The notes beneath the pieces are model-generated. The model had not been told where the DNA came from and did no database searches. It saw only the letters and a list, made by a program, of their open reading frames with translations. A stretch of 64,000 nt of DNA from Aurantiochytrium sp. KH105 (lineage: Eukaryota > Sar > Bigyra > Thraustochytrida > Thraustochytriidae), in assembly GCA_003116975.1 (NCBI GenBank), contig BGKB01000512.1, positions 1-64,000 of the forward strand, in the 5' to 3' direction. This document shows positions 31,621 through 54,002 of the stretch, one piece after another. A program made the position numbers and the translations under genes. Positions within the stretch are counted from its first letter, which is position 1. Each line of letters begins with the position of its first letter.

Positions 31621-32610
31621 GGTGCGCTCGACTAGTTTCGCGCGCGGCGCGTGCGCAGACAGAGCACGCAGGCACGGCACGACGGGCACGCACGCACGCA
31701 CGCAGGCACGCACGCAGGCAGGCAGAACTGGGCTCTGCCTTCACGATTGACACGAACAAGCAAGCAAGGTGGCCGTTGACTTACCATCGCCCGGGCCTTT
31801 TTTTTTTTTTCTCGCCTGCTATTTTGGGTTGCGGAACATTTTGTCACGCCGTACAGTTTCATGTCTAGTGCGCAGTAGTCACACCATGGTCAGGTACGGG
31901 TTCGGGCCTCGATGCGGGTTCAAAAGGGAGCCTTGCTGGGTCCGCGACGAAGCGTAGGAGAGCCTCGCTCCGCTGCAGCTTTTGTATTCTCCGCGTCTTG
32001 ATGACGGCCGCGCAGAGAACCAGAAGCGGCTCCTGGCTGCCTCTCCTCTCCTCCCCGAGTCCTTTCGCGCAGCCCCGCGCCGCCACTTGCCCTGCACAAG
32101 TTATGGCCGATGGCGCCATGGCCCGTAATAAACCTTGCTTTATTTGTTTCCCAGGTGTTGCCACTGGGTCTTGTTCCGTACAGCGACTAATCTTCATATA
32201 TGGTATCCACATACAAGACCGCGAGGCGGAGAAGAAGAAAAAAAATAATGGAAAAAGAAAAGGGAGGAAGTGACGAAAGACCTTCTCCTGCACTGCTCTG
32301 CATCTGCGAGCAGGCTGCAGGCTGCACGCGGCCGCGCGCCCCGAGCCTCGCCGCCATCGCGGCGCGATCCTCGCCTGCTCTGACGCTGCCGGTCAGGCCG
32401 GTGCGAGAGCGCGCGCGAGTGGAGCAGGGAGGAGCTGGGCCTCGCTGTCCTTGGGCTTCGCGCGCTTGGTTCTATCTTTCTTTCTTTCTCCTCCAAATAT
32501 GCGCGGCCGTGCTGGACCGGACCGACGACGTATGCCTCTCTAGGCTGCGCCTACGCTAAACCCGCGCCGCTACTTTGGCACGCGACAGCGACCGGTGAGC
32601 CGGCCGGGCT

Positions 32611-36977: not shown

Positions 36978-37058
36978 ACATCCAGGAGCTCTCTTCTTAT
37001 TTTCTTGTTTATCCCCTACTCTCATCTGCAGTCGCGAATGAGTCATGCAAACGAACTT

Positions 37059-38393
37059 CTACAATTGGCTAATCTCCTCGCGAATGATCTCATCATGCTC
37101 ACCAAGCCGAGGAACATCGCGAAGCGATGGTGGCGACGGCTGCACTGCCGGGGCCGGAACCTCAATGCTTTTCCCCTGCTCTGTCTTGTACTCGACTGTC
37201 CGCAACTGCGGATGCTCTACAAGACCCTTGACAGAATTGAGTTCCCCAAACGCAATGCCCGCCGAGAGCAAAAGCGCAGTCAGGTCGTCAGCCTTTTGTT
37301 TGCCAAAGGCTTCCTGTACGATGGCGTCGAGCGCTGGCCGGTTGACCACACGGTCCGTTGCCGTCGAAAACCTCGAGTCCGTCGCCAACGCAGCGTCACC
37401 GAGCACCTTGGCGCACAGGTTAACCCATTCGCGCTCGTTCTGAATCGAAATGAGGATCTTGCGCTCATCCATCGCCGTGAACGCGCCATAAGGTGCAATG
37501 CTGGGATGCTTGAGGCCCACGCGTTTCACCACATTGTCACTGTACTTTGTTTGAATAAAGGGGACATTCATAATCTCTGCCATGGTGTCGAACATTGAAA
37601 CTTTGTAGCCCGATCCTTTGCCCGTGCGTTCCCGCTCGTACAGGCCCTGAAGAATAGCTGCGTAACCGTTCATCCCCGTCGTAATATCGCAAATACTAAC
37701 CCCCACGCGCCCGGGTTCCTCGGGCGAACCCGTCACTGTGTTCCGAAAAGAAAAATTCCCAATCGCAATGTGAACCGTCAGTACTTTTGCATTGCAAACT
37801 CGAGTGTCCATCTCCCACCACGTTTTGGGCATCTCTTTCCCCTTTCCTCTTCCCCTCTTCGTTATCGCTTGAGTCCGTCGGTCGCCGCAGCCTCCGTCCT
37901 AAGCTTTCTTTTTTCACGTACCATCGCAGAGACCAGCCTCGGCGGCGACAAGAAGATCATACGCCTTGTAGGAGCTGCGCGGACCCTCGTCGCCGTATCC
38001 GGAAATATCGAGTGTAATGAGCCGAGGGTTGAGTTCGCGCAGGTACTCGCTGCCAAAACCTGCGCGCTCTGCAGCGCCGGGCGCCAAGTTTTGCACAAAG
38101 ACGTCGGCCTTGTTGGTGATGAGCTTTTGCAGCGCTTCGCGGTCGCCATCGGCTTTGATATCCGCCGTGAAGGACTCCTTGCCACGGTTCAGCCACGCAA
38201 AGTAGCTGCTCGCCCCCGACGCGTTACGGTCGTACTGCCGCGCAAAGTCTCCCGCGGGCCTTCGTTCGACCTTGATGACCCTCGCGCCCTGGTCCGCCAG
38301 CTTGCTCGTGCAGAACGGCGCCGCCACCGCTTGCTCGAGCGACACGACCACAAGGCCTCCCAAGAGTCTGCGCGTCGCCGTTGCCGTCGCCAT
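37059..38393 (-). CDS. Class III (CaiB/BaiF) CoA-transferase (two exons)
   Basis: Exons 38393..37922 and 37735..37059 give 382 aa. Exon 1 (MATATATRRLLGGL) has VVSLEQAVAAPFCTSKLADQG, the nucleotide-fold KVERRPAGDFAR, and NPRLITLDISGYGDEGP with YKAYDLLVAAEAGL. The donor is GTACGT at 37921 and the acceptor CACAG at 37736. Splicing restores GLCDVTGSPEEPGRVGVSICD. D174 in VSICDITTGMNGY is the catalytic Asp of the family. The family moves CoA between carboxylic acids (succinyl-CoA:glutarate CoA-transferase, formyl-CoA transferase, bile-acid and racemase relatives); the substrate is not fixed by sequence alone. Single-domain size and bacterial-like sequence fit the mitochondrial SUGCT-type group. 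Confidence 0.92.
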
Positions 38394-39099
38394 CTCCGTT
38401 TCCTCGCGAGTCTTCTCTCCTTTGGAGCTTGCGCACGAGATCTTGTCGTGCGTCTGGGATTTGGTTGACCCCAGGTTCAATCGATCCTATTTGGCTTGTC
38501 TTGAAGACGCGGTATGAGCTTGAAGAGGCTCGAAGAAGAAAAAAACACTCTGCCAGTCGCTGCCAGCTGGAGACATCAGACGAGCCGTCGGAGGAGCCTT
38601 TTTGGCGTAGCCAGCGTTTCTTTTCCAATTTTTATAAGAGCGATTGAAGGCCTGCTGGCTGAATCGATCGATTGATCAATCGCTGGATCGATTGATTCAT
38701 TGACTGATTGATCAAGCTCGGCGCGAAAAGAAAACGTAAACTTCAATGTCAACATCGCGGCTGCGTGTGTATAGGAGAGGAGACAAACTCGTGTTTGGTC
38801 TCCTGCACGTCGGAGACCAAGCCAGCTCGCCTCGCGCGCGCGGCGAGCAGCGAGACTCGGGGTCCTGTGGCGAGCGCGCCGAGACCCTCTTTCTCTTTCG
38901 TCGTGCTTCTCTATCCGGCGTCCGGTGAACGCCGCCGACCCAGAGACAGCGTCGGCGTACGAGATCGGAGCTGGCGACAAGAGAGAGCGCTCGGGCGAGC
39001 ACGAACGTCCGCGCACGAACAGCGCTCGCTCGCCAGCTCGCTCGGCCGGCCGGCCGGCCGCCCGTGCTTGCCTTGAGATATACTTGCTTGCTTGTCAGC
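38394..39099. other. Divergent intergenic region
   Basis: 706 bp between the CoA-transferase and DUF707 genes. It has ATCGATTGATCAATCG-type degenerate repeats (38662-38718) and a GCCGGCCGGCCG run near 39048. No gene. Confidence 0.5.
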
Positions 39100-40353
39100 A
39101 TGCGGGGGAATGGCAGTATGCTGCCGCTCTCGCGCAGCCCCAAGACCAAGGCCATGCGAAAACGCCTCGTGCTAGCCGGCAAACTCAGGTCAACCTTTGT
39201 TTTGTCCATAATGGTCCTGTGCATATACCTGCTGTTGATTGAATACAGGTTCTGGACAACCATTCCGCGTTCGGAAATCTCTGCGCAAAGAGCACTCGCC
39301 ATGCTACACGATCAAGATGTGCGTCCGCTCTACCGCGACGCCGATGTTACCCCATCTCTTGCTTTGCAATACATTTCCACGACACATCGACCCACGCGAT
39401 CGCATGGTGTCAAGTGGAAAACAAACCAACGCGAAGAATGGTGCGAGCCTCGGGACGTCATTTACAATTGGAACCCTCTCTGGGTCGATGAGGGGACCAT
39501 TCCACCTGCGCCCTTTGACGCTAGCGACCCGCCTACGTGGTGGACGCAGCAGGAACTCGCCGCGGTTCACGGTCGCTACCTAATTATCATTGCAGCAGGC
39601 GATAATTCCTCGCACGCGGTGCCCGAAGACCCATGGGCCCAGGCCGACGGTGTCGACCTCGCTGTAATTTACTTTGGCTCTGACAAGGCCATCGCAGCTC
39701 GCTACAAAGAGTCTGCAACGTACTTTTTACAATCGACCGGCATCAAGTGGCAAGTCTACCGGAAGTTTTTGCCGTCAATTGACTGGTCTCAGTACGAGTA
39801 TATTTGGATGCCAGATGACGACGTGAGAATGTCTTCAGAGAGCGTTGTGCGCATGTTTCGGATTGCAGCCGCGCACGACATTCGCCTCGGTCAGCCTGCA
39901 CTGCATCCAGAGAACATTCACTATGCGCACTTGCGCGCCAAACCTGGCAAGGCGCTTCATTATGTAAACTTTGTCGAGATCATGGCGCCCTTTCTCCGCG
40001 TCGATGCATTTGCTTACATTCTGCCCACCATCATGAGTAAACACACCAATGTTGGTTGGGGCCTCGACTGGCTCTGGGTGCATCTACTCCGCTGGCCACC
40101 CATGGCCGCGATCGATGCAACACCGGCGCGCCACGTGGGTAGTCAGAACACTATGCGCAAGGGAGGCATTTACGAAACTTTTAAAATCAGTCCTTACAAG
40201 GAGTTCGACATGACGCTGCGCATGTTTGGCTGCCAACCCTTTAACAAACGAGACCTCGGCTTTGACGTCGACATCTTGCAGGTTGACGAAGTCGTCGCGG
40301 CCTACGAAGAAAAGATGAAAACATTGCAACGCAATGCAGCACCGCTGCTCTAA
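39100..40353 (+). CDS. DUF707-family type II membrane protein, glycosyltransferase-like
   Basis: 417 aa from ATG 39100. A basic cytosolic N-terminus is followed by one signal anchor (FVLSIMVLCIYLLLIEYRFW, about 34-53), placing the rest in the Golgi or ER lumen. The lumenal domain has GRYLIIIAAG, VDLAVIYFGSD, QVYRKFLPSIDWSQYEYIWMPDDDVRM with a metal-binding DDD motif, QPALHPENIHYAHLRAKPG, FVEIMAPFLRVDAF, GLDWLW and a final KEFDMTLRMFGC. This order is that of plant and stramenopile DUF707 proteins, whose fold resembles GT-A glycosyltransferases. The donor and acceptor are unknown. Single exon. It could act in the same compartment as the anchored UGM at 16523. Confidence 0.85.
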   Translation: MRGNGSMLPLSRSPKTKAMRKRLVLAGKLRSTFVLSIMVLCIYLLLIEYRFWTTIPRSEISAQRALAMLHDQDVRPLYRDADVTPSLALQYISTTHRPTRSHGVKWKTNQREEWCEPRDVIYNWNPLWVDEGTIPPAPFDASDPPTWWTQQELAAVHGRYLIIIAAGDNSSHAVPEDPWAQADGVDLAVIYFGSDKAIAARYKESATYFLQSTGIKWQVYRKFLPSIDWSQYEYIWMPDDDVRMSSESVVRMFRIAAAHDIRLGQPALHPENIHYAHLRAKPGKALHYVNFVEIMAPFLRVDAFAYILPTIMSKHTNVGWGLDWLWVHLLRWPPMAAIDATPARHVGSQNTMRKGGIYETFKISPYKEFDMTLRMFGCQPFNKRDLGFDVDILQVDEVVAAYEEKMKTLQRNAAPLL

Positions 40354-41024
40354 CTTTACTTTTTCCTTTTTTGTGAACAAACCCTAGAACCAACACAAAA
40401 CTTTTGCTGTCTTGTCAATCTCAGTCTCTTGCACTCTGTACGCCCTTTTTACCATGCATCCCATGCATACACTATCTTTAATAGTTGCCGACGTTGCGGC
40501 TCGACGTCGAGGTGATTAATCTCGGCCAAGGCTATCTCTCTCCACTTGGAAGTGCTACTACCCACATACTTTAGTACTTACCTTCTTCTTCGCCAACCGC
40601 GTCTCGCCAGCGGCACAGACGTAATGCGCACTACGTCACCGTTTTAGCTTTTCTCCGCCAAAGCAAGCGACACCACATTCCGCCACCGGTGACGCCTCTC
40701 GTCAAGGCTCGCAACTTTGATTCCTCAAGATGCGGGTGTGTGCAGACGATGATTGACAGTGAATGTGTCCTGGTGTGTGCAAGGCAAGTGCTTGGCTTCG
40801 GGACGCTCATCTCCGACGCCTGCCGACTACACCATAACCGCACGTCCTCCACTGCAGACCCAACCCGCGGCGCACGCGTCGCCGCGGCCGCAAGGCCTAG
40901 CCTCGGCAGGGCCCCGTCTGCGCGGCGCACGTGCGCTCGTGCGTGGCCGAGTGAAACGGGCGAGCGCGTGCACAAGCACAAAGCACGAGCACGAGCAGGT
41001 TGCATCTAGGGTTGCAAGGGCGTC
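40354..41024. other. Intergenic, 5' flank of the LRR-NEL gene
   Basis: 671 bp. AT-rich on the left (3' UTR of the DUF707 gene), GC-rich near 40850-41000. No coding region supported. Confidence 0.55.
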
Positions 41025-44000
41025 ATGCCCACCAAGACGTCCCTGCGCGACGAACGCAGCCGTGTCTTGCAGCTGTGCGAGGCGTGGGTCGAGGAGGCGG
41101 GCGTCGGCGCGGCGGAAGTGCAGCAGCGTGAAGAAGCAAGTTTCCGCGTCTTCGAGTTCTTTGCAGATCGTGTGAGCGACAAGGCCGCGAGAGCGCGCCG
41201 CGACCAGGCCAAGGTCAGGTGGACGCTCCTGCAGCGTCTACACGGGACGTCTCTACCGCGCGTGGTGGAGAGGGTGCGCCATTTCGTCGATGCTCTTGCG
41301 CAGGCTGGTTATGCCGATATCGACGCCTTGCGCTCGTTCACGGTCGAAGCCCTTGAGCGCGTCAATGCACGAATTCCGGGCGACGCGATCTCCGATGAGG
41401 ATCTTGCGACATTGCTGCGAGACTGTTCCCGGACGCCTGTACTGGACCTTAGCGACCTTTCCGAGCTGCGTAGCTTGCCTGACTTTGGCGTCTTTCGAGG
41501 AAACCTCAACGCGAGCGGGATGCGAAATCTCAAACGACTTCCTAGCGATTCGCATTTTCGAGGCAGCCTGGCACTCGTGGAGAGTGGCATCTGCGAGATT
41601 CCGCAGCGCCTCGAAGTCGATGGACATCTTTGGCTTTCCCGGTGCCAACACTTGCGCATATCGCGCGCCCTCAGTGGGGTCGTTATCCGTGGGGACCTCG
41701 TCCTGACAGGAAGTCCTGTGAAGAGATTGAATGGCAAGGGACATCACAAAGTAAAGATTCTTGGCGACTTGGATTGCGACAGGTGCGAGCACTTGGAGGA
41801 GATCGGAAGTGGTCTGTATATAGGGCGCTCGCTGAGTGCGCGAAACTGCAAGCAGCTGCGCAAGCTTGGATCCGCGCTCGAGGTGGGTTCATACATCGAG
41901 GTGCAAGGTTGTACGGCCCTGCAAAAGGTGCCTGCGAACTTGCCCGTCGTTAATGGCCTGGGTATCAGTCGGTGCACCGGGATCAAATCCATTCCTTTGG
42001 ATATCTCACACATTAAAGGCAGTCTGTTCGCAGCACAAATGCCACAACTCGAGAGTCTGCCGCCAAATCTCGAGGTCGTGGAGGAAATGCTCAATGTAGC
42101 CTGCGATCCCTGTCTCGAAGCGTTGCCACGTACGTTACGAACCGTCGGGCAACTTGACGCCAGCGGATGTGCAGCTCTTGCGCGGCTCCCCAAAACGCAA
42201 CTCACAGTCAACGGTGAATGTAATCTCAGTGGCTGCACGGAGCTGCGCAAATTGCCAAAGACGCTGAGCACGGGAACCTTGCGCCTGCGAAACTGTACAC
42301 AATTAGAAGAGCTGCCGTCGAATCTCAATGTGAATGGAAATCTTGACATTGCAGGATGCACACGTCTGCGTCGAATTCCCGACGATTTGCGTAAGCGCGT
42401 CCGCCAACGTGTTTATTTGTGGAATTGCCCTCGATTGGAATTACCCACGGGCTGGTCTGTGCGGGGTGACCTCTTTGTGCATGAGGACGAAGGACTCTTC
42501 CACCTCCCTGACGAGCTCGAGGTCCAGGGGGACGTGTGGATCACTCACAATGTGATGCGCAAGTTTCCCAAAGGGCTCAAGGCACGCGATAGCATTTTTG
42601 CGTCGGACTCGGGCGAACTCGAGTCTTTGAACGTGGACCTCGACGTCCCTGGCATGCTGGTTTTGGCAAGGAGTCCTAAACTTCGCTCGCTTGGACGCAA
42701 CGTGCGTGTGGGCGGCATGCTGAATCTTGCCAACTGCGCGTTGCTCACAGATTTGGGCGGGGTCCGCATTGGAGGGTCGCTCAATCTGCGTGGGTGCATC
42801 TCGCTGCGCGCGCTGCCACCGCAGCTTCAAGTGGGTGGCAGTCTCGTGCTTGAAGGTTGCACAGGCCTCACGTCGCTGCCACCATGCATTTTTACGTGGG
42901 GCGCACCGAAGCGAGGTGACAAGCACGACGTTTTCCTTGCGGGCTCGGGCATCCCGCTGGATGTGCTTGACAGGCTCGAGGCCGACAAGGTGCGGTATTT
43001 ACGCTTTCACACGGCATCAAGTATGTACAGCGGACAAGAGGGCGCGATTGTTCACGGCGAGGCAGACGTCAGCGAGGCTGTCGTGGCAGAGCTGGCTGAT
43101 TCCAAGTACGCGCGCGCGGCGAGACGAAAAGACGCGCTCCGGCACCAGGTCGAGGCCAGTTCCGATGTGACGCCAAGGCCTCGGGGGGCGCCGGCGATGC
43201 CGCTGGGCACGCCAGCCGTTGCCTTGAATAGGTTTCGATTGCGAAGGGAGCGGCGTCGGGAGCGGGGGCTTCCGCAAGACATGGCGAGGTTCGGGGAGGA
43301 GAACGAGGAGGATCACTTTGCCTCCTTACCCAAGGCACTTCGATATTGGGCTCATTTGGCGGGGGGCGAAGCCCCTGATGTGGAAGGGTGCGTGGCCGCC
43401 GCGCACGAGCGCGGCGTGCTGGCGTTTCTGTCCAAGCTTCGGGCCTCGAAGGAGTTCAAGTCGGAGCACTTGCAACCTGCGCTCGCGCAGCGCGTGGTGG
43501 AGGCCTTCGATATTGTCGCGAACGACGAGTACGCGCGCGAGGAGGTGCTGGAGCGCATGGGCGACGCTGTCGACGCGTGCGGGGACAAGCCCGTGTGGGC
43601 GTTGAACCAGATAAACCTGATTGCGGCGATCGCGCGCGCGCGTGGCGACCGCGCGGCCCTGCGACGCGTGGGGCGCGGCACCATGCGGCTCGAGGTTGTG
43701 CACGAACACTGCGCTCGCAAGGTGGCCAGCTTCAAGGCTGCCGACGAGACGTGTGTGTATCTGCGGTTCGAGACGGCTCTCAAAGACGTTCTGGAGCTGC
43801 CCGTGTCGAGTTGCGACATGCTCTACTCGTCGCACGCGAGGGTGAGCGCGGCCGAGCTTGCGGCTGCGCGCGAGGAGGCGCTCAAGGTCGTGGACGGCAC
43901 CAAGGCGTTCGAGTCGTGGCTGCGCGCCTGGCCCGAGTGGCAGCGGCAGCGCCGGCTGGAAACCTCGCTCCGCCTGCGCTGGGAGAACCTCCCGCGCAAT

Positions 44001-44351
44001 TCGCGCCGCTTCCGCGCCTCGTGGGCGGATCTTTGCGGCAACACCAACATCGCGGACCCGGTCCGCGTCGACGGCAAGGGCGCCGTGTGGAGCATGCGCG
44101 ACCTGCTTCGGCACTGGGTGGCCACCGGTCTGGATCTGCACAACCAGCCTCTATCCTCTGCGGACATCCGCCGGATCACCCGAGCCCGCTCTGTACCGCG
44201 TCCGCACGGCGCTCCTTCCGCGCCGGGCCTGGAAGGCGTCGCTGTGGCCGTCGGTCCTACTGGTCCTGCTGCCAAAGCCCAGCGCGTTGACCACCTTCTT
44301 CCGCGCGCGGACCGCGAGCGTCGTCACCACGTCGCCAGCGGCCAGAGCTGA
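41025..44351 (+). CDS. Leucine-rich-repeat protein with a NEL-type (IpaH/SspH-like) E3 ubiquitin ligase domain
   Basis: 1108 aa from ATG 41025, one exon. Residues 1-130 are a charged helical region. Residues about 135-650 hold more than 20 short LRRs with the period L..LP..L.v.G.L.L..C, for example CTELRKLPKTL, CTQLEELPSNL and CISLRALPPQL, as in bacterial LPX-type LRRs. Residues about 770-1030 match the NEL E3 domain: the CxD catalytic motif is C852-G-D854 (DACGDKPVWALNQINL), then GRGTMRLEVVHEHCARKVASF, TCVYLRFETALKDVLELP and FESWLRAWPEWQRQRRLE. NEL ligases take ubiquitin onto the Cys and are otherwise known mainly as secreted bacterial effectors; the LRRs bind substrate and hold the enzyme inactive. 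Reading-frame signals shift near 44180 (see findings), so the last 55 residues are doubtful. Transfer from bacteria is inferred. Confidence 0.85.
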   Translation: MPTKTSLRDERSRVLQLCEAWVEEAGVGAAEVQQREEASFRVFEFFADRVSDKAARARRDQAKVRWTLLQRLHGTSLPRVVERVRHFVDALAQAGYADIDALRSFTVEALERVNARIPGDAISDEDLATLLRDCSRTPVLDLSDLSELRSLPDFGVFRGNLNASGMRNLKRLPSDSHFRGSLALVESGICEIPQRLEVDGHLWLSRCQHLRISRALSGVVIRGDLVLTGSPVKRLNGKGHHKVKILGDLDCDRCEHLEEIGSGLYIGRSLSARNCKQLRKLGSALEVGSYIEVQGCTALQKVPANLPVVNGLGISRCTGIKSIPLDISHIKGSLFAAQMPQLESLPPNLEVVEEMLNVACDPCLEALPRTLRTVGQLDASGCAALARLPKTQLTVNGECNLSGCTELRKLPKTLSTGTLRLRNCTQLEELPSNLNVNGNLDIAGCTRLRRIPDDLRKRVRQRVYLWNCPRLELPTGWSVRGDLFVHEDEGLFHLPDELEVQGDVWITHNVMRKFPKGLKARDSIFASDSGELESLNVDLDVPGMLVLARSPKLRSLGRNVRVGGMLNLANCALLTDLGGVRIGGSLNLRGCISLRALPPQLQVGGSLVLEGCTGLTSLPPCIFTWGAPKRGDKHDVFLAGSGIPLDVLDRLEADKVRYLRFHTASSMYSGQEGAIVHGEADVSEAVVAELADSKYARAARRKDALRHQVEASSDVTPRPRGAPAMPLGTPAVALNRFRLRRERRRERGLPQDMARFGEENEEDHFASLPKALRYWAHLAGGEAPDVEGCVAAAHERGVLAFLSKLRASKEFKSEHLQPALAQRVVEAFDIVANDEYAREEVLERMGDAVDACGDKPVWALNQINLIAAIARARGDRAALRRVGRGTMRLEVVHEHCARKVASFKAADETCVYLRFETALKDVLELPVSSCDMLYSSHARVSAAELAAAREEALKVVDGTKAFESWLRAWPEWQRQRRLETSLRLRWENLPRNSRRFRASWADLCGNTNIADPVRVDGKGAVWSMRDLLRHWVATGLDLHNQPLSSADIRRITRARSVPRPHGAPSAPGLEGVAVAVGPTGPAAKAQRVDHLLPRADRERRHHVASGQS

Positions 44352-45316
44352 CTTTAATTACGGGCGCTCTGCATGCGTGGTACCAACTTGCCTTGCAGCT
44401 GGGCCTCTTCTTCGCCATTGACTTCTTCTTCTTCTTCTCCTCCTTCTTCGTCGTCGTCGGCGTCCAGGCGAGCGAGGCTGGCCTGCCTGCTCTGGGAGGC
44501 CGGCGACGACCGGCTGGTCATGGACGTTCCACTCCTCGGCCGGGTGGCGACAGGGCTGGGCGGTGGAATCCACGCAGCCGAGGCCTAAAGAGCGTCGCTG
44601 TTTGCGTGTGCACGTGCGTCGGCCCTTTCTTCTTGTTCAGGAGAACGAACGCTGCGACGCCAGCCGGCCAGCCCGCGGCCAGCCCGCGGCCAGCCGCCGC
44701 CGCGAGAGCCGCCGCGAGAGCCACAGCACGCGCCGCGGCCCCGGGCCCGCGCGGCCTGGCCTCGGCCAGCACAGCAGCGCAGCAGCGCGGCGCAGCAGGG
44801 GAGGAAGCTGGGCGGCGTGTGCGCCCGCGGGCCGAGACGATGTGCGCAGGAAGTCCGCGCGCAAGTCCCGGGAGGCGCGGCGCCGCCGCCGCGAGCGCGC
44901 AGGTCGCGAGTCTCGGCCCGCGGGGAGCGAGCGGCGAGGGCGGGGGAAGGCAGCGGGCGCGCGGAAGCCCAGGCTTCCCGGAGGCGCTGCGCGAGACTCG
45001 ACGGGGCGAGATGAGATGCGCTGCGATGCGGTGCGCTGCGATGAGATGAGCTGCGATGCGATGAGGTGCCGTTCGTCTGTGCGCTTGAAGACGTCGACGT
45101 CGAGACAGACCCGAGCGGCGGCCAGCGCCGGGATGCGCCGCGGGCGAGCGAGCCTCGGCGGCGCGTGGGCGGTCCCGCCGCCGGCAGCAGCAGCGGCGGC
45201 GGCGGTACGAACCGCAGCGCCGTTGGTTGGGTCCATTGACGCGCTCAGTATCTGTATCTACCTCCGCCTCTACGCAACGCAGGGCGGGCGCGCCGCGTTG
45301 ACGACGGCGAGGCGAG

Positions 45317-45341
45317 GAAAGCAAGCAAGCAAGCAAGCAAG
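45317..45341 (+). repeat. (AAGC)6 tetranucleotide array
   Basis: Six AAGC units in the 2.8-kb intergenic region; same unit as at 22879. Confidence 0.88.
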
Positions 45342-45480
45342 GCAGGCCGAGGCGAGGCGAGAGAAGCCAAGCAGGCCAAGAGACGCCAAGCAAGGCACGA
45401 ACGGCCGAGGCATGGACAGCTGCGGCAAGAAGAATCGAGGCGAGGCGAGGCGAGCAGACCGACAACGCGCCAGAGGCTGC

Positions 45481-45515
45481 TCTGCTCTGCTCTGCTCTGC
45501 TCTGCTCTGCTCTGC
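45481..45515 (+). repeat. (TCTGC)7 pentanucleotide array
   Basis: Seven perfect units, followed by degenerate TGAGC/TCTGC copies to about 45530. Confidence 0.92.
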
Positions 45516-46040
45516 TGAGCTCTGCTGAGCTAGCTGTGCGGAGCTGTGCTGTGCTGAGCGGAGCTGTGCCGAGCTGTGAGAAGGGCGGTCCCTGGAGGCG
45601 CGTGGGACGACGCGTGGCGGCGAGCGCGAGGCCAAGGAGCAGCGGCCTGGAGCGTGGAGCTGCAGGCGCTTGTGCGTGCGTGCGCTTGTGCGTGCGTGCG
45701 TGCTCGCGCGTGTCTGTCGTTCAAGGCGAGCGAGCGGTCGATCTCCGCTTCCGGGCGGGCGAGGTTTGGGCAGGGGCTGTTCAGAGGCGAGTCCCGCACG
45801 AAGAGCGGAGGAGGAGACGAAGCCGCGCGAGACTGCAGGCAGCCAGAACGAGATCGAGCGAGCAGAAAGTCGGGCGCCAAGAGGAGCTCCACGCGAGGAA
45901 GGACCTGCGCAGCTCGCGAGGTATAGCTCGCGAGCGGGAGCCGGAGTTGGATCTGGCTGGCCAGAAGAAGCGGAGGGAGTCTATACGGGATCGACCACAC
46001 GACCTGGTACCGCAGACGGCACGCGTTTGCTTCGTGGAAA

Positions 46041-46112
46041 GGCAAGGCAAGCAAAGCAAGGGCAAGAGCAAGAGCAAGGGCAAGAGCAAGGGCAAGAGCA
46101 AAGCAAAGCAAG
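46041..46112 (+). repeat. GGCAAGAGCAAG-type minisatellite
   Basis: Alternating GGGCAAGAGCAA and AGCAAG words over about 70 bp, built from a 6-bp core. Confidence 0.85.
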
Positions 46113-47182
46113 CTTGGGACTCGCGCAGGCTCGCTTGTACAAAGCATCGAGCAAACGCACAAGGCTCGGCCTCGCGCAAGGCCCCGCTCGCGAGGAAAAG
46201 CAGCAGCCAGCACCATCAATCAGCAGGGCGCACGCATGCCTGCCAGCGGCTCGCCGCCTTTGATCGAGGTCTGACCGCGCAGCCGGCGCGCGCGCGCAGG
46301 CAGGCAGGCAGGCACACAGCTGCACGCACGCGACGCAAGGCAACGCAAGGCGACGCAGGGCAAGGGACGCCAAGCCAAGTCACGGCAGGTTCGCAGGCAG
46401 CGGCAGCGGAGCCTCGCCGCTGCCTGGGCGCGTTCCCAAGACCCTATCCAGAGCTTAGCTCAGCTCCCCAGGCCACTGCGACGGGGACCCGCGCCTGCCT
46501 TCGTACGTACATCCGATCCCGGCGCAGCGTGCATCCCTGCCACGCACGCACGCACGCACGCAAGGCGCTCGCTCGAGCGAGCGAGCGAGCGAGCGTCTGT
46601 CTGCGAGCGCCAGGCGCCCTCGTGCTGCTGCTGCCGCCGCTGCTCCTCCTGCGGCTCGACATCGCTCGCATCAACCAGGCCCGGCCAGGCGAGGCCAGGC
46701 CAGGCGGGGCGAGGCGGGGCGGGGCGGCTCGGGCGCGGAGAGGCAGCGGCCTCGCGGCCAGTGCCCGCGCGCGTGCCCGAGCCGAGTTCGCTGCCTCGTC
46801 CCGTCTCGTCTCGGCCGTCTCCGCTCTGCTCTGCTCTGCTCCGCTTTGCTCTGCTCCGGTCTGCTTTTCATAGAGGAACCGTGGAGAGGAACCCTTTTGC
46901 GCGAGAGCGGCGGGGAGGAGGACGAGGAGGGCGGGGGTAAGGCGCAGGAGCGGGAGCGGGAGCGCCTGCTCGGCAGGCCGTACGGAGGAAGGCTGGCGGG
47001 CAGGCAGAGGGGGAGCGTGGAAGGGCAGCGCGAAGAAGAAGAAGAAGAAGAAGAAGAGGAACAACAACCGCAACAACCACAACCACAAGGAGGAGGAGGA
47101 GGAGACGGCGCCCGAGGAGAAGAAGGGAGGGAAGCAAGGAAGGGAACAGAGCGACAAAAAGAGGGCTCGCGGCCGCGCGCGG

Positions 47183-47608
47183 ATGGCGTGGGCGCGGGGC
47201 AAGCAGGGGCCGTACGCAGGCGAGAGAGAGGAGGCGCAGGCGCAGCAGCGGGCCCTGGAAGGCAGGGCGCCCGGAGGAAGAGGCGCCGCAGCGGCAGCAG
47301 CAGCGGGAGGAGGAAGCGCGCGGGAAGAGAGCGCCACGCGCGACGATGGCGGCGGCCGACAGAGGAGCGCTGTGACGTCGCAGTTTCCACAAACGGCGTC
47401 GACGCTGCCGCCACCACCGCTGCAGCCGCCGCCGCCGCCGCCGCCTCTGTCGGCGCCAAGACCAGCGACGATGCAACAGCAGCAGCACCCGCACCAGCAC
47501 CAGCAGTATTTGCCACCGTCGCCGCGACACCCGCCAGCCTCGCCCATCTTACTTCGGCAGGAGGAGCCCGTCTTCCGTCAGCAGAATCTCCATTTTGCAA
47601 ACCCAATG

Positions 47609-47658
<50 letters not shown>

Positions 47659-49618
47659 CAACAACAACGCCCAGAGCGAAAAGAGCCCGCCAGAATCGTA
47701 TGCGCAACATCCCGGCGACAGAAACGAAGTCGCCGAAAACTTCGAGTTCCCATGGGACACCTCCGTCGACGCAGACTCCCTCGCAGGCACCATGGGTATG
47801 CCGAGCATGCTGCACGCACCGCTGACATCCGTGCCCCCAAACCCTCCCTACCGCGGCGGCTTCGCGCAGCCCATGATCGCACACGGCTCGGCGAACGCTT
47901 ACGCAGGCAGACCTGGCGAAATTCCGCACAACCACAACCCTTGGCATAGCCCTCTCTGGGAACGCGCGCCAAGCCCCTATCGCCCGAGCGGCGAAAACAG
48001 CTCGCTCGACGTCTTCATGGAATTCTGCGCTTTTTATTGCAATCGTCACACCGGCGAAGTCTACGTCAACGCAAGTGGAATCCTCACCAAACCGTGCTTT
48101 ACCAAGTGGCTTGAAACGCGCCAAGGCCAGCTCAAACGCCCCGAGGAGGCCTTTCGGAAAACAATCACAGCACACTGTACTGGCACCGACGGGCGAAAAC
48201 CTTTTCTTCGCGAGGTCGAGGCCGCCGTCCTGATCGAGCTGCGCAGACAAAATGTATGGCCCTGTTTTGCAGATCGAACCACGGCCAAGGGGGACCCGAT
48301 AAACATTGGCCAGCACGGTTTCCGAGGCCAGGGCTACCACGAAAACCTTCGACTTCCGGAAAACATGCGCAAGTCCCGTCGCAACACCAGCGCTGCGCGC
48401 CCTCGGCAGCAAAACCACGCCGCGGGTACTTCCGACGGCAACGGTCCGCATAGTCGACCGAATGCCCCTCGCGCTGCCCCTCCTCCTGCTCTTCATCAAC
48501 AACATCCTCCTCATCCTTCACACCCTCAATTTCCTCATGCTTATCATGCACCTGGTGGCGTCGCGCCCCCGCCCATCCCGCGCCCGCGTCCGCCTCCGCC
48601 CATACTTTCTGGCTATAACCTCAACGAGACGGCAACAACACCACTGTCTCACACCACCTCGCCATCTCCGCTCAAGGCTGAATATTCGATCGCGGATGCG
48701 GAGATCGCCGACCCCAGAGACTCGAAGCGTAAACGAGCTCAGTCCGGAGCACGAAGTGCTGCTGCCCCGAGCCCCTTTGCGGGCAGCGTGAGCAGTGGCG
48801 AAGACGGAACGAGCTGCAGCGAGGCTGGCGCAAACACCAGCATGCGGTTCAACCCAAACGCCGTGCCTGCAAACAGGACCGAATGGTCGCAAAATCCAAA
48901 CCTCGTCGTCATAGCGTGTGAGACGATGGGCATCCCTCTCTGCGAGTTCGACGAGTCCATTCAGGACGAAGCCATTCCCTCCATCGAACGCGTCCCAGAT
49001 ATCTTGCGCCTCGACCACATCCCTTTGACATTACGCGCTGCAGGTCTTCGCGTCATGACAAAGTACTTTCGCCCGCACCATTTCCTTTCTCTCATGAGCA
49101 TCGCGAAAACAACACAGACTGACGGCATTTTTGACAACAGAATCACGCGACTTCCTGTCAATCTGAGAGACCCGCGCTTTGCACGCTCTTTCCTCCTTCC
49201 AGACGCTGACCTCGTTCCGTCGCACCCGGTCGGCAGAAATATTTTCTGCCTCAATACCTTCATGTACATCTCCTCTGACCACACTGCACGAAAAATTCTT
49301 GAGGGTGCCGTGGAAGGGAGTCCAACGCTAAAGTTTTTGCACCCACTACAGTTTTGGATGGTCGTTGTCCACGTTATTCCCATGCTGATGGAGCGGGGTG
49401 AGCTCGTCTGGCAATCCTTTGGGAATACCTACAAAGGCAAACCCATGATTGCTCGCTCCAAGTACAAGATCGTCGGTGACACTGTGCATACATGTTTCCA
49501 AAATGTCAGTCACCTGTACCCAAACCTCATGGCCATGCCCTCGCTCGAGGAAGTTGTCGAGCGAGAAAACAGTATTCTCGGCGAGTCCCGCGCAGCAATG
49601 CCACGTGCGAATCGCTAG
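47183..49618 (+). CDS. Large protein of unknown function with a low-complexity N-terminus
   Basis: 811 aa from ATG 47183; a later in-frame ATG at 47471 (MQQQQHPHQH) may be the real start, because residues 1-96 are Arg/Gly/Ala/Pro low-complexity. Ser13 and Asn6 tracts lie near residues 145-165. Two folded regions can be seen. The first is about 270-400 (SLDVFMEFCAFYCNRHTGEVYVNASGI, EAFRKTITAHCTGTDG, VEAAVLIELRRQNVWPCF). The second is about 570-800 (PNLVVIACETMGIPLCEFDE, ITRLPVNLRDPRFARSFLLPDADL, LQFWMVVVHVIPMLMERG, SKYKIVGDTVHTCFQNV). A Pro-rich linker with a basic KRKRAQSG separates them. The architecture recalls transcription regulators, but I recognise no family. Confidence 0.72.
47610..47665 (+). 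repeat. AGC/AAC triplet tracts encoding poly-Ser and poly-Asn
   Basis: Thirteen AGC codons followed by six AAC codons inside the gene at 47183-49618. Confidence 0.88.
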
Positions 49619-50125
49619 CGAACCAAATTTCAAAAAACATGGCTACGAAACTCTGAACCCTGACTGCCCTCATGACCCTGTCCTTTATATTTTTTCATTT
49701 CTCTCTTATCAAGCTCATGTTTACTTTTTGTCACCGTGATGTGCAGTCCTCCAAATCGTCTTCTTGGCCCTGCCGAAACCCGAGCCACAACAAAAACGGA
49801 ACCATGACAAGTTCGCTCAAAAATGCCCGCCAACTCTCGATACGCAGAGTTTAGTTATGTTTTTCATATTACTAATTGGGCTTTGTCGTCCATCCGTCCG
49901 TCCGTCCGTCCGTCTTTCTCTTTGTCTCTTTGTCTCTTCGCGCCAACGCCACCATCATCATCCTTTGCAACAGGCATCGTCACATCACAAAGGTGAGAGC
50001 GAACCTCCTCCTACTTGCGGGACGCTCAATCGGACATATAAAGATGCCGTCACGCGGCGGCGCGCCGGGCAAGCAAGCAAGCACCAGCAAAACCTTCACG
50101 TCCTGTGCAAGAAAGACAAGACACC
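49619..50125. other. Intergenic, 5' flank of the temptin-Kua fusion gene
   Basis: 507 bp with a (CCGT)n array at 49894-49914 and GCAAGCAAGCA near 50070. No gene is supported; it may hold a missing 5' exon with a signal peptide for the next gene. Confidence 0.5.
49894..49914 (+). repeat. (CCGT)5 tetranucleotide array
   Basis: Short perfect CCGT run 210 bp upstream of the fusion gene ATG. Confidence 0.88.
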
Positions 50126-53100
50126 ATGGGCAAAGATGAGAGGGGATGTGCGCAGCGCGCGCAACTGTTGCGCCAGCGAAGACGCCGTGCAACCTCGTCG
50201 GCCGCCCGCGCCACGGCCCTTGTCTTTGGCATGGCCAAGGTCACCACCGAGGGCCCGACCGCGCTCGGGTTTCCGGTGAACGCGCTACGTATCCCAAACG
50301 GAAGAGCTTTCCCAGCAGCAGGCCATAGTGAGGGCGTGGGAGGCGGACCCTTGTCTCCCTTTGGCATTGACTTCCTTGCTTGCGATGGGCAATGGTACGT
50401 CGACCTATGATGTTGTCAGGGTGACGACGAGAACGGATGATGAACAATGATCGTTGAACAGACAGACCAACCAAACAAACAAACAAACAAACAATTCATC
50501 TAACCATTCACAAACCGGGGTACGACGCATTCCTTCCTCCTTTTTGCTGTTTTTGTTGTTGTTGTTGTTGTTGACGAACTCACAGGTCGGCGTGCCTTTG
50601 TGGACGTGACTCCGATGGCGATGGCGAGACGAACGGAATGGAGCTTGGAGACCCATGTTGCGTATGGCAACCCGACGACCACTTTCCGCCCCAGCGCCGC
50701 GACCAACTCTCGGACCCTTCCCGCGCGGACTCGCTCACCTCACTTTCTGTGGATGCAGACAGTATATCTTGTGATGGTTCGAATCAAGATGCCGCTCAAG
50801 ATAGCGAGGCCCGTCCACATTGGGGTTTCTCGTTCTCGGATCTTGTGCGCGGGTTTCTGGACTTCGTCACGTCCGGAATCCTGCTCTACCTTGCTGTTCT
50901 CGTCGTTCGAGACTGGCAAGATCTCCACATGCAGCGTTTGCAGCGCGCAAACAAGGAAAAGGTCCCCGTAGAACACGCATCGTGGTGGTGGACGATGGCA
51001 CTTCCAATTATCTTTGCATATCTATGGGGCGATTTGGGCAGCGCCATCTCTCATGTCGTGTTGGATAATCCAGAAGTGCTCCATCGATGGCCCATTCTTC
51101 GTCAAAGTGCGGACTCCTTCCAAGAGCATCACATTGACCCAATCAAGCTGTCTGCTCCGCCGCTCTGTTTTCTCCTTCCATTGGTATTTCTGGCAGCCTC
51201 GAGCACCAATGCTCGTCTGCGCTGGTGCACGCTCGCCATCTCCGCCTTCTTTGAGCTTGCATACGTGGGCCACTGGTACTCGCACGTGAGCGAGACGTGG
51301 GCGTCCGCCCCGCTCTTGAATCTGGTCTTTGTTTCCCACGCACATCACAATGTCCACCACACCACGTTTGCAAGCAACTTTGCATTCCTTTCAGGATACA
51401 CAGATCCCTTTGCTAATGCACTCTTGCTCCTCGTCCCGCAAAAATTTGTGGGCACCTGGTTTTTTCTCGTTGGCGGACTGTGGAGTTTGATGCCACGCAT
51501 TCTGTTTCATGCAGCTGCGTCGATAAAGACGTGGAGCCGTCGCCACTTACGTGTTCTCGCGCTCGTTCTTGTGCTCGGAACTGCTACTACTGTCTACATG
51601 GGTCAAGTGCAAGAGACTGGGTACGGTCACTTTGGTCCTACTCTGGACGAACTCGCTGCGCGGCACGCCGCTGCAGAAGCTGCAACGCCGTCTCAGCACG
51701 GATCCAAAAGTAACCTCGCCAATGTGCAAGAAGCGACGAGCAACTCCAATGGGGCGCTCTCCCACGCTTCAGGTCAACGCGAGCCTCCTGCAGGTGCACT
51801 TTTTTCGGCTGCAGAGGTCGCAAAGCACCAAAGCGCACATGACGCATGGATTGTTCTCGGTCGCGATGTGCTCGACGTGACGCGTTGGCTTGATTTTCAT
51901 CCTGGCGGGAAAGAGATCATGTTACCGTATCTTGGATACAATGCTACGGAAACATTCGATGAACAGGGCCATTCAGATGTAGCGATTGAAACGACGCGCA
52001 TGTACCGAATCGGCACCATTCATGCAGGAGAGATCGTGCCGTCTGCGCCTGTTGATGACGGTGTTGACGATGTGGACGAGACAGACTCCCTCGGGCTCAA
52101 GCGACGCGTATTTCGTCAACCTGTGCAAGGCGAACCGTGTTTTGGCCCTCCCACACAGCTTGCACGGGAGGGCGAGTGGGAACTTGACGCTGTAGCTCCT
52201 TTCTCGGAAAAATATGCTCGTGGCCGAAGCAAAACCTTTGGAACTTCCCATAGCTCAGAGCTAGCCATGCGACTCTCTGTCGACCTCGCCCTACTCACGC
52301 CCCCGCTCTTGCAGACCACCCCTGCGTCGGCCTTTTACATTCGGACCGGACTCCCTGGTACACTGGATGCCATGGCGCTTTCGAGGGAGACGTGGAAGGT
52401 GCAAGTGCAGTCTATCAGTGGTCAAATTCTCCACACTTTCTCGGCTCAGGAGATTCACGACGTTGGATCGCACGTAGGCACTGGCGTCATGGAGTGCTCG
52501 GGAAACACGCGCGTGTGGCACTTTGGCCTTTTGTCACAAGCACAGTGGACTCGTGGCGTCAGAGTACGTGACCTCTTGAAAGATTACCTTCCTGCGGCCG
52601 GCACTGCTTCCGACGGCCGCGCCATTCTTGTCGAGGGCTACGACGAGCACATCAAGACCGCAGGTGGCGCGAAGGGCGCGAGCTGGGTTTTTACGTGGGA
52701 TCAGGTTATAAGCACGGCAATGTTCTTTGCCACGGAGCTCAATGGTGAGCCGCTTCCGCCCGACCATGGATTTCCCATTCGTCTTGTGGTGCCCAACTGG
52801 TATGGGTGCACATGTATCAAATGGGTGCGACTCGTCAAATTTGTTGATGCGCGTCGTGTCAAGCCAACGGGGCAAATGAACGAGTTCAGAACGCGCGTGC
52901 ATATGCAAAAGGCGCCATCCACCATGGCCTATGGCTGGCACGCCAAGCAAGGCCTCTCCGCAGCGGCTACTCGTGTGGAGCAGTGGCGACACGTCACCTC
53001 GAACGCAACATACCTCAAGATTGTGGGTCTCATGTGGGGCGGCCAGGAAGACGCTGTGAACCCGCGACTGGAAATTGAATTGCGCTCGCAAGCTGGCGCG

Positions 53101-53313
53101 GTCGTAGTTTCCGAACCATTGCAAGTGGTCAAGCCGCGGAGTCTTATCACCGAGTGGACAAGCTTGTGCCATTCGATTCCTCTTGAAGTGACGCGCGGAA
53201 GCCGCTACACTGTCACCTTTCGACCTGTTGACCCTACTATTTTGGCCCCTCGATTGAGGTCCAAGACCCGCGGTGTGTTGGCGTGGTATGCACGTAGCTT
53301 TCAGCTCTTGTGA
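50126..53313 (+). CDS. Temptin-like / Kua (TMEM189-type) desaturase-like / cytochrome b5 / molybdopterin oxidoreductase fusion (two exons)
   Basis: Exons 50126..50394 and 50586..53313 (donor GTACGT, acceptor CACAG) give 998 aa. Residues about 55-137 are temptin-like: RIPNG, AAGH, PFGIDF, then C95-GRDSDGDGETNGMELGDPCCVW; the intron lies inside this block. Residues about 165-395 are a Kua/PEDS1/FAD4-like membrane domain with the His series H246 (SHVVLDN), QEHHIDP (H271/H272), GHWYSH (H319, H323) and HAHHNVHH (H341-H348). Residues about 495-570 are cytochrome b5, with haem ligands H528 (HPGG) and H552. Residues about 640-860 are a sulfite-oxidase-type Mo domain with catalytic-position C727 in MECSGNTR and FPIRLVVPNWYG; a dimerisation-like tail follows. 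No FAD reductase domain is present. The b5 could feed electrons to the di-iron desaturase site, or take them from Mo; both are inference. Confidence 0.85.
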
Positions 53314-54002
53314 ATGTTATACAAATGATTTTTAAAATGACTTCTGTTTGGACTTTGTTGGAGGTCACAGAGCGCGTTCATGCTGGCGCTGTCAGGATCA
53401 ATGCAAGCAGATACCTTCTGATTGTAGATAGTCTGGCTAGGTGAGTGGCGCAGTTTCGTCGGTCGCACGAAAAAAGTGGAAGAGGGAGAAGAAGTAGAAA
53501 AAACAAAACAAAAAGAGTCACACAAATTCCGAAATGCTTCTTGTTTTTGTTTTTCCGCTTCAGGACGTCGAACAGCTCGCCGGCTGTTTTTTCTCCTAAC
53601 TGACTGAATTTCCTATAGATTAGATAGATGGGTCGGTCTGCCAGACAAGCGTGTGCGCAGGCGACGCAAGCTAGCTCTTCGATGCAAGGTTCTTAATTTT
53701 TTTTCCCACGTCCCTCTCCTTTGTTTTCTCCTGAGCAACGCAAAGCAAACAGAAAGACATGCGCATGATCAAGCCAGTCGCGCTAGCAAAGCCCTTGCCC
53801 ACCGACTTTCACCCTCCATATGTTTGAGCATGCACATGCGTTTGCATTGCAGGCCATCCCACGTTAATTGACCCACAATCCTTTTCAACGTTCACGCGAG
53901 CGAGCATTCGGGGTGCGGGGCGCGTGTTTGCCTCGCTCGCACCCTCTTGCTTTTTCTAAGGCACTCGCGATTGCCACGCAACACATAGTGGAGCGTGCAA
54001 AA
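53314..54002. other. Convergent intergenic region
   Basis: 689 bp between the fusion-gene stop and the SSNA1 stop. AT-rich with GATAGATAG-like short repeats near 53620. No gene. Confidence 0.6.

Follow-up and report, generated by a model that had tools for sequence, protein, structure and literature searches.

A probably resident and expanded family of NEL-type ubiquitin ligase genes in a thraustochytrid genome

The locus described here raises the question of where an enzyme so far described as a weapon injected by bacteria came from, and what use it has at home in a protist cell. NEL ligases are presented as a family of bacterial effectors in a review (PMC9320238). Within the window, that is, the whole 64,000-nucleotide stretch of Aurantiochytrium sp. 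KH105 DNA analysed, one open frame of 1,108 amino acids at 41025..44351 on the forward strand, which holds all of the gene's features given below, had been predicted to encode an LRR array followed by a NEL domain. The gene proved to be real: its NEL catalytic domain, at 43401..43946 (residues 793-974), matched PF14496 with an E value of 1.1e-24 and 87.5 bits against a cut-off of 24. We consider it highly probable that the gene belongs to a eukaryotic family of NEL-type ubiquitin ligases which was horizontally acquired long ago, is now resident and has expanded.

Eukaryotic genes, which the original prediction had placed around the gene, are present in the window, among them BBS7 (29194-31740) and genes for a BK-type channel and for a homologue of MutS; the next long frame upstream of the LRR-NEL gene encodes a DUF707 protein (Pfam), and the next one downstream had no Pfam match. 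Because both flanks of the gene are collinear, at 94%, with a second contig (C222) that carries a NEL allele between them (97% over residues 1-725 of the window protein), contamination, which the original prediction had singled out for checking, is very unlikely. Bacterial contamination or a chimeric assembly would be in line with the NEL domain being known as bacterial, but besides the two collinear contigs, NEL loci are spread over many contigs and no close bacterial relative was found, the prokaryote relatives found being 28-31% identical, and we put the chance of such an artefact at practically nil. The eukaryotic genes in the window and the syntenic second contig likewise mean that the gene is not carried by a bacterium possessing type III secretion. 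Codon usage agrees with host residence, since the LRR-NEL gene correlates with five host genes at r = 0.88, against 0.72-0.74 for two NEL genes of Pseudomonas, although this is weak evidence given the value of 0.77 for a short host gene outside those five. In keeping with a thraustochytrid or other labyrinthulomycete, which BBS7 and the long uninterrupted frames also suggest, a PfaA-type PUFA synthase match was obtained at 930 bits over profile positions 6-1035, short of the full-length cut-off of 1010; 11 of 14 control genomes matched this profile too, all of them under the cut-off. A viral carrier was also considered and rejected; the scan of viral contigs returned one locus (L047) with a 26-residue match, whose record lacked a NEL profile match.

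The window gene, the only NEL gene covered by the original prediction, has many relatives in the same genome. We found 32 matches to PF14496, all in open frames and all above the cut-off, which represent 16 loci on two haplotypes, where we infer five of the pairs; the 14 well-known control genomes yielded no PF14496 match. The loci differ widely, with a mean column identity of 49%, and their architecture varies: two contain SPRY and one contains SAM, in frames of 1,802-3,539 amino acids, and in a scan of the 16 loci, LRR units were not found in one (C201). Values of dN/dS were 0.069 in NEL (11 allele pairs, 2,039 codons) and 0.174 in the stretch before NEL, showing that purifying selection is strong in NEL and weaker upstream of it within the protein. 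Such an expanded family would also fit an arsenal of effectors that the protist exports into prey, hosts or competitors, instead of ligases for its own proteins, and the faster evolution of the stretch preceding NEL points the same way. We regard export as distinctly unlikely, however, because the long frames with SPRY or SAM look intracellular and, as the original prediction had it, a signal peptide is not evident by eye in the N-terminal residues of the window protein.

The members of this family retain the catalytic residues expected of a NEL ligase. The CxD motif (C852-G-D854) lies at 43578..43586, residues 852 and 854 being the predicted C and D, and both are invariant in 16 of 16 loci. 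Conservation of C852 in related frames, proposed as a check on the prediction, was borne out by the CxD pair in all 27 NEL frames read, out of the 32 in the genome. Comparison with the PDB of a 16-locus profile, built solely from the NEL sequences of this genome, returned 12 distinct sequences at E<=0.01, all of which bear the name IpaH, invasion plasmid antigen, SspH or SlrP, and in the two alignments printed the catalytic pair of the family lines up with the CED motif of IpaH. The NEL region is helical in the AF2 model, at low block pLDDT (53-74 in the first half and 34-50 in the second); this model of the window protein has a mean pLDDT of 61.2, with a usable LRR solenoid and a weak NEL and tail. 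Catalytically dead scaffold proteins, in which the NEL fold was kept for binding, might be expected to show the large divergence from bacterial NELs noted above, but the retention of CxD in every frame read and the fact that purifying selection is strongest in NEL make this alternative highly improbable.

The part of the window protein preceding NEL begins with a helical region (41025..41437, residues 1 to about 137), for which the AF2 model shows six helices, all within residues 4-134 (block pLDDT 36-68), and in which Pfam found no recognised domain. It is followed by an LRR solenoid, the presumed substrate arm, at 41439..42905 (residues about 139-627), delimited by repeat period and AF2; solenoid strands start at about residue 139 (block pLDDT 45-94, mostly >70), and a period of mostly 20-22 amino acids extends over about residues 249-627. 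The LRRs had been called LPX-like, and while the repeats are indeed of bacterial length, the unit, read by eye as about LxLxxCxxLxxLPxxLxVxGx, differs from the LPX unit. The sole Pfam LRR match in the protein was LRR_EndoS, below its cut-off (21.7 vs 27.9), and in the PDB the array matched 7crb best (E=9.1e-11), a plant TIR-NLR protein. The N-terminal and LRR part together had 56 matches in the genome, the window gene itself counted, of which 54 lay in NEL frames; the other two fell in one frame on contig C26, judged to be non-NEL by contig and frame length.

Beyond NEL, the protein ends in a conserved domain that the original prediction did not mention, defined by profiles at 44001..44170 (residues about 993-1048). 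This domain occurs at 28 places in the genome, all within NEL frames, and none of the 15 members compared with Pfam matched any family at E values up to 10. The AF2 model places short strands at residues 1013-1015 and 1021-1023, then a helix at 1024-1034, with nearly all pLDDT values below 50. Comparison with the U-box profile gave a score of 24.3 and a probability of 46.5%; the highest of 600 column shuffles scored 17.0, the reversed profile 8.0 and the highest of 51 natural windows 13.5, with the U-box profile itself reaching up to 16.9 on these windows. The profile-profile similarity is thus above chance, and the resemblance to a U-box is suggestive only. The domain aligns with a U-box (PF04564) profile from the DPV motif through the next helix; unlike a U-box, it lacks a Pfam match, and the E2-contact positions of the U-box are not evidently kept. 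Four PDB matches of the domain, including a chain of polymerase iota, a polymerase with a ubiquitin-binding motif, were set aside as not significant (E 0.45-1.3).

With regard to origin, all 16 loci fell on one side of a 99/98 branch in the NEL tree, apart from the bacterial sequences. The tree is unrooted, and of the 19 rows that make up its bacterial sample, 14 come from closely related Pseudomonas. Most likely the family is an old acquisition whose members now serve the cell as resident E3s, their target arms having diversified; a transfer into the protist, long ago, would be the presumed direction and age. The converse history, that NEL is old in eukaryotes and was taken by bacteria from protists, making the bacterial weapon the derived form, draws on the similar stem lengths of the three tree groups (eukaryotic, 2.0; Pseudomonas, 2.4; rhizobial plus Serratia, 2.2), on the wide differences among the 16 loci, and on the finding that 9 genomes, the centre genome counted, carry NELs in a sample of 398 from Pseudomonadota. 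We nevertheless judge it unlikely, since the LRR repeats have a bacterial length, in keeping with a bacterial source, and NELs are not known to us from other eukaryotes.

We propose that the resident family would descend from a single ancestor, gained by ancient horizontal transfer, in which an LRR array of bacterial length was already joined to NEL. The LRR array would bind a target protein inside the cell, and in some paralogs the added SPRY or SAM module would do so instead. C852, assisted by D854, is predicted to accept ubiquitin from an E2 of the host, forming a thioester, and to hand it on to the target, while docking of E2 or ubiquitin is probably aided by the C-terminal domain. More tentatively, and as a possibility that we do not favour, the family could form its own eukaryotic class of two-part ligases, with a cysteine-dependent NEL followed by an E2-recruiting U-box-like domain and with LRR, SPRY or SAM as target arms; this would add to HECT and RBR another mechanistic layout, one that uses a part described as a bacterial weapon, with diversified recognition perhaps directed against intruders. 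That 16 NEL loci are conserved and under selection, three also carrying SPRY or SAM, suggests that NEL is tolerable in a cell with its own ubiquitin system, and self-damage must therefore be controlled. The family also brings the origin of NEL within reach of phylogenetic tests, and its naturally varied target arms and new C-terminal domain can serve mechanistic studies.

Among the titles and abstract openings listed, a set with preprints outside its scope and subscription journals thinly covered, we found no description of a resident eukaryotic NEL family. PF14496 occurs in three papers: PMC7029713, where it is among the families queried in Giardia and the passage in question reports no hit, PMC6557245 and PMC7145615. 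In the last of these, a bacteria-like, NEL-related region has been claimed for NLR genes of the eukaryote Klebsormidium, a claim tied in the passages concerned to superfamily SSF52075, which is said there to bear LRRs and to be homologous to NEL; unlike in the present family, a catalytic cysteine is not described in those passages. The ToxA_N-LRR-NEL proteins of Pseudomonas, about 1,600 amino acids long, share the LRR-NEL arrangement in their C-terminal half (seen in the one of 14 scanned with Pfam), whereas they form a separate tree group, the ToxA_N N-terminal part is theirs, and the C-terminal domain found no match in windows along their alignment, the top score being 13.5. XopL, a bacterial LRR effector and E3 ligase, provided through its LRR part the best NCBIfam match of the LRR array (residues 398-456, E=1.6e-11), but scored 43.6 bits where the cut-off is 500, and its ligase domain is not known to be a NEL. 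The window protein is also not an orthologue of the bacterial IpaH, SspH or SlrP effectors by NCBIfam equivalog scores, which lie far below the cut-offs (IpaH, 35.5 vs 550 bits; SspH2, 21.2 vs 1243; SlrP, 27.1 vs 1113), and one family member was 27-29% identical to a Bradyrhizobium NEL and a Serratia symbiotica plasmid NEL. Nevertheless, the family shares with the IpaH, SspH, SlrP and NopM NELs (PF14496) the order of LRR then NEL, the CxD pair and other conserved blocks that align in register, and it differs from them in being encoded in a eukaryotic genome, at 16 loci, with SPRY and SAM fusions and an extra C-terminal domain.

The gene at 41025-44351 on the forward strand is a single open frame of 1,108 aa, and the NEL domain ascribed to it in the original prediction was recovered by Pfam at residues 793-974 (E=1.1e-24; 87.5 bits against a cut-off of 24), with the CxD pair at C852 and D854. 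N-terminal to the NEL domain lies an LRR array with a period of mostly 20-22 residues; of the LPX-like repeats proposed for it, the bacterial repeat length was upheld and the LPX unit was not, the repeat unit differing from what we take the LPX unit to be. The best PDB match of the array was 7crb, a plant TIR-NLR, and its best NCBIfam match was the effector XopL; neither places the origin of the array. The AlphaFold2 model of the protein (mean pLDDT 61.2) showed the array as a solenoid, with pLDDT mostly >70, followed by the NEL domain, with block pLDDT of 53-74 in its first half and 34-50 in its second, and a tail with nearly all values <50. At and beyond the 3' end of the gene, window positions 44001-48000 are GC-rich (65-72% per kb) and hold numerous open frames that overlap one another on the two strands; few of these are likely to be genes.

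Residence in the eukaryotic genome, as opposed to origin from a bacterial contaminant, was confirmed by collinearity: window positions 37000-41000 and 47200-53400 match another contig of the genome, C222, in the same order and orientation and at 94% identity, and an allele of the LRR-NEL gene sits between the two matching flanks on C222. Eukaryotic genes are present in the window as anticipated, among them BBS7, a BK-type channel and a MutS homologue. Codon usage of the gene correlated with that of five pooled host genes at 0.879, compared with 0.885 for BBS7 (one of the five), 0.85-0.93 for six NEL paralogs, and 0.72 and 0.74 for two Pseudomonas NEL genes; because a short piece (279 codons) of a host CoA-transferase gene outside the pool reached just 0.77, codon usage is weak support for residence. 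Elsewhere in this genome, parts of a PfaA-type PUFA synthase sit on separate contigs (G000:C72:311448-314582 and C290:39390-41678), which hints at a labyrinthulomycete.

A profile search of the genome (76 Mb, 367 contigs) revealed 32 NEL matches, all above the cut-off and in open frames. The same search found no NEL in 14 well-known control genomes, a set so small that this zero shows no more than that the profile gives no random hits. Among the 27 frames read, 11 allele pairs had NEL identities of 96.8-100%; together with five pairs inferred from agreeing frame lengths and scores, these indicate 16 NEL loci in two haplotypes. Across loci, NEL identity to the first row ranged from 33 to 72%, with 13 of 15 values within 41-49%, and the catalytic cysteine equivalent to C852 proved conserved, the CxD motif being present in all 27 frames. 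Two of the loci (L009 and L010; C31:323992-329179, C93:135042-140343) are separated by some 4 kb and face in opposite directions in both haplotypes. Another match (L013 and L014; C4:1150-1677, C55:1168-1695) is found in both haplotypes some 1.2 kb into the contig, which may reflect a subtelomeric position or a shared assembly break.

Comparison of the 11 allele pairs gave a dN/dS of 0.069 in the NEL domain (2,039 codons), 0.174 in up to 500 codons preceding it (5,306 codons), 0.169 in the 85 codons following it (926 codons) and 0.402 past those 85 codons (632 codons), indicating that the enzyme part is most firmly held and the presumed target arm less so.

Pfam analysis of a single allele from each of the 16 loci, with the retrieved sequences of L016, L031 and L032 incomplete at the 5' end, identified SPRY domains in L011 (E=1.3e-15) and L024 (E=2.2e-12) and a SAM domain in L016 (E=6.7e-17); the frames of these three loci are 1,802, 1,860 and 3,539 aa long. 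The 13 other loci showed no additional domain above its cut-off. When the N-terminal and LRR part of the window protein was compared with the genome, 54 of 56 matches among the best candidates scored (gene and allele counted) fell in NEL frames, which were recognised by their contig and frame length. The two parts therefore seem to have spread together, and this joint spread favours gain of an LRR-NEL gene over capture of a NEL domain by a host LRR gene. The other two matches fell in one LRR-only frame (L050, G000:C26:58200-62600, frame 46-2199) of 718 aa with the repeat type of the NEL family, no NEL match nearby and no Pfam match. LRR units per locus ranged from 0 to 21 in a strict scan; the locus without any, L015 on C201, has an Armadillo match below threshold (18.5 bits vs 20.6), which suggests a possible replacement of its target arm.

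Among 84,980 prokaryote species, a scan with short patterns, which misses kin, found 14 relatives, all Pseudomonas and 28-31% identical. Profile search detected NEL in 9 of 398 Pseudomonadota genomes (centre genome counted), with most full-length matches outscoring every member of the present family, and a plasmid search with one family sequence returned Bradyrhizobium and Serratia symbiotica records at 27-29% identity. In an unrooted tree of 35 rows, the 16 loci fell together on one side of a branch (support 99/98). A second branch (100/99) set apart 14 Pseudomonas rows, and a third (100/99) the five rows from rhizobia and Serratia; the stems of the three groups measured 2.0, 2.4 and 2.2 changes per column, respectively. 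Within this sample, a single origin of the 16 loci followed by expansion is supported; a direction of transfer is unsupported, given the lack of a root, the narrow range of bacteria sampled and the coverage of one eukaryotic genome.

C-terminal to NEL, all 27 frames carry a W-x-x-(T/S/H)-G motif. An alignment of 15 loci, omitting the more divergent C97, spans about 56 residues there and has four invariant positions. The C1 copy as genome query matched 28 places, all within NEL frames, in a search that was not exhaustive because it missed the C97/C200 and C27/C32 copies. Pfam assigned no family to any of 15 members at E up to 10, and a PDB search gave noise only. Profile comparison with a U-box alignment (7 of the genome's 11 U-box frames, two of them mutual alleles) scored 24.3 with a probability of 46.5%, in a single look at a relative already suspected by eye and therefore not blind. 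Controls reached 17.0 for 600 column shuffles, 8.0 for the reversed profile and 13.5 for 51 overlapping windows of Pseudomonas NEL proteins and NEL; the U-box profile itself scored up to 16.9 on those windows, and two parts of the U-box set scored 64.0 against each other. AlphaFold2 modelled two short strands then a helix at low confidence. At this probability the U-box match falls short of a confident assignment, and we give a true U-box-like fold roughly even chances.

NEL as a domain is already a known kind, reviewed as a family of bacterial effectors (PMC9320238); new here are its presence in a eukaryotic genome, the 16 loci, the SPRY and SAM fusions and the family's own C-terminal domain. 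Titles and abstract openings among the matches listed in our literature search described no resident eukaryotic NEL family, and the one eukaryotic NEL claim met rests on an LRR superfamily (PMC7145615). Homologues from other protists may already be present in protein databases.

A profile built from the 16 sequences alone matched 12 distinct PDB sequences, every one a NEL ligase, and the catalytic Cys and Asp line up in both alignments displayed. In IpaH/SspH ligases, the NEL cysteine accepts ubiquitin from E2~Ub and hands it on to the target that the LRRs have bound. By the same chemistry, the cysteine of the protist proteins would take ubiquitin from E2~Ub and pass it to targets that would be proteins inside the protist's own cytoplasm. 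One plausible but conjectural role is in immunity against intracellular bacteria. The expansion, faster-evolving arms and added modules of the family resemble those of families whose targets are numerous or change over time.
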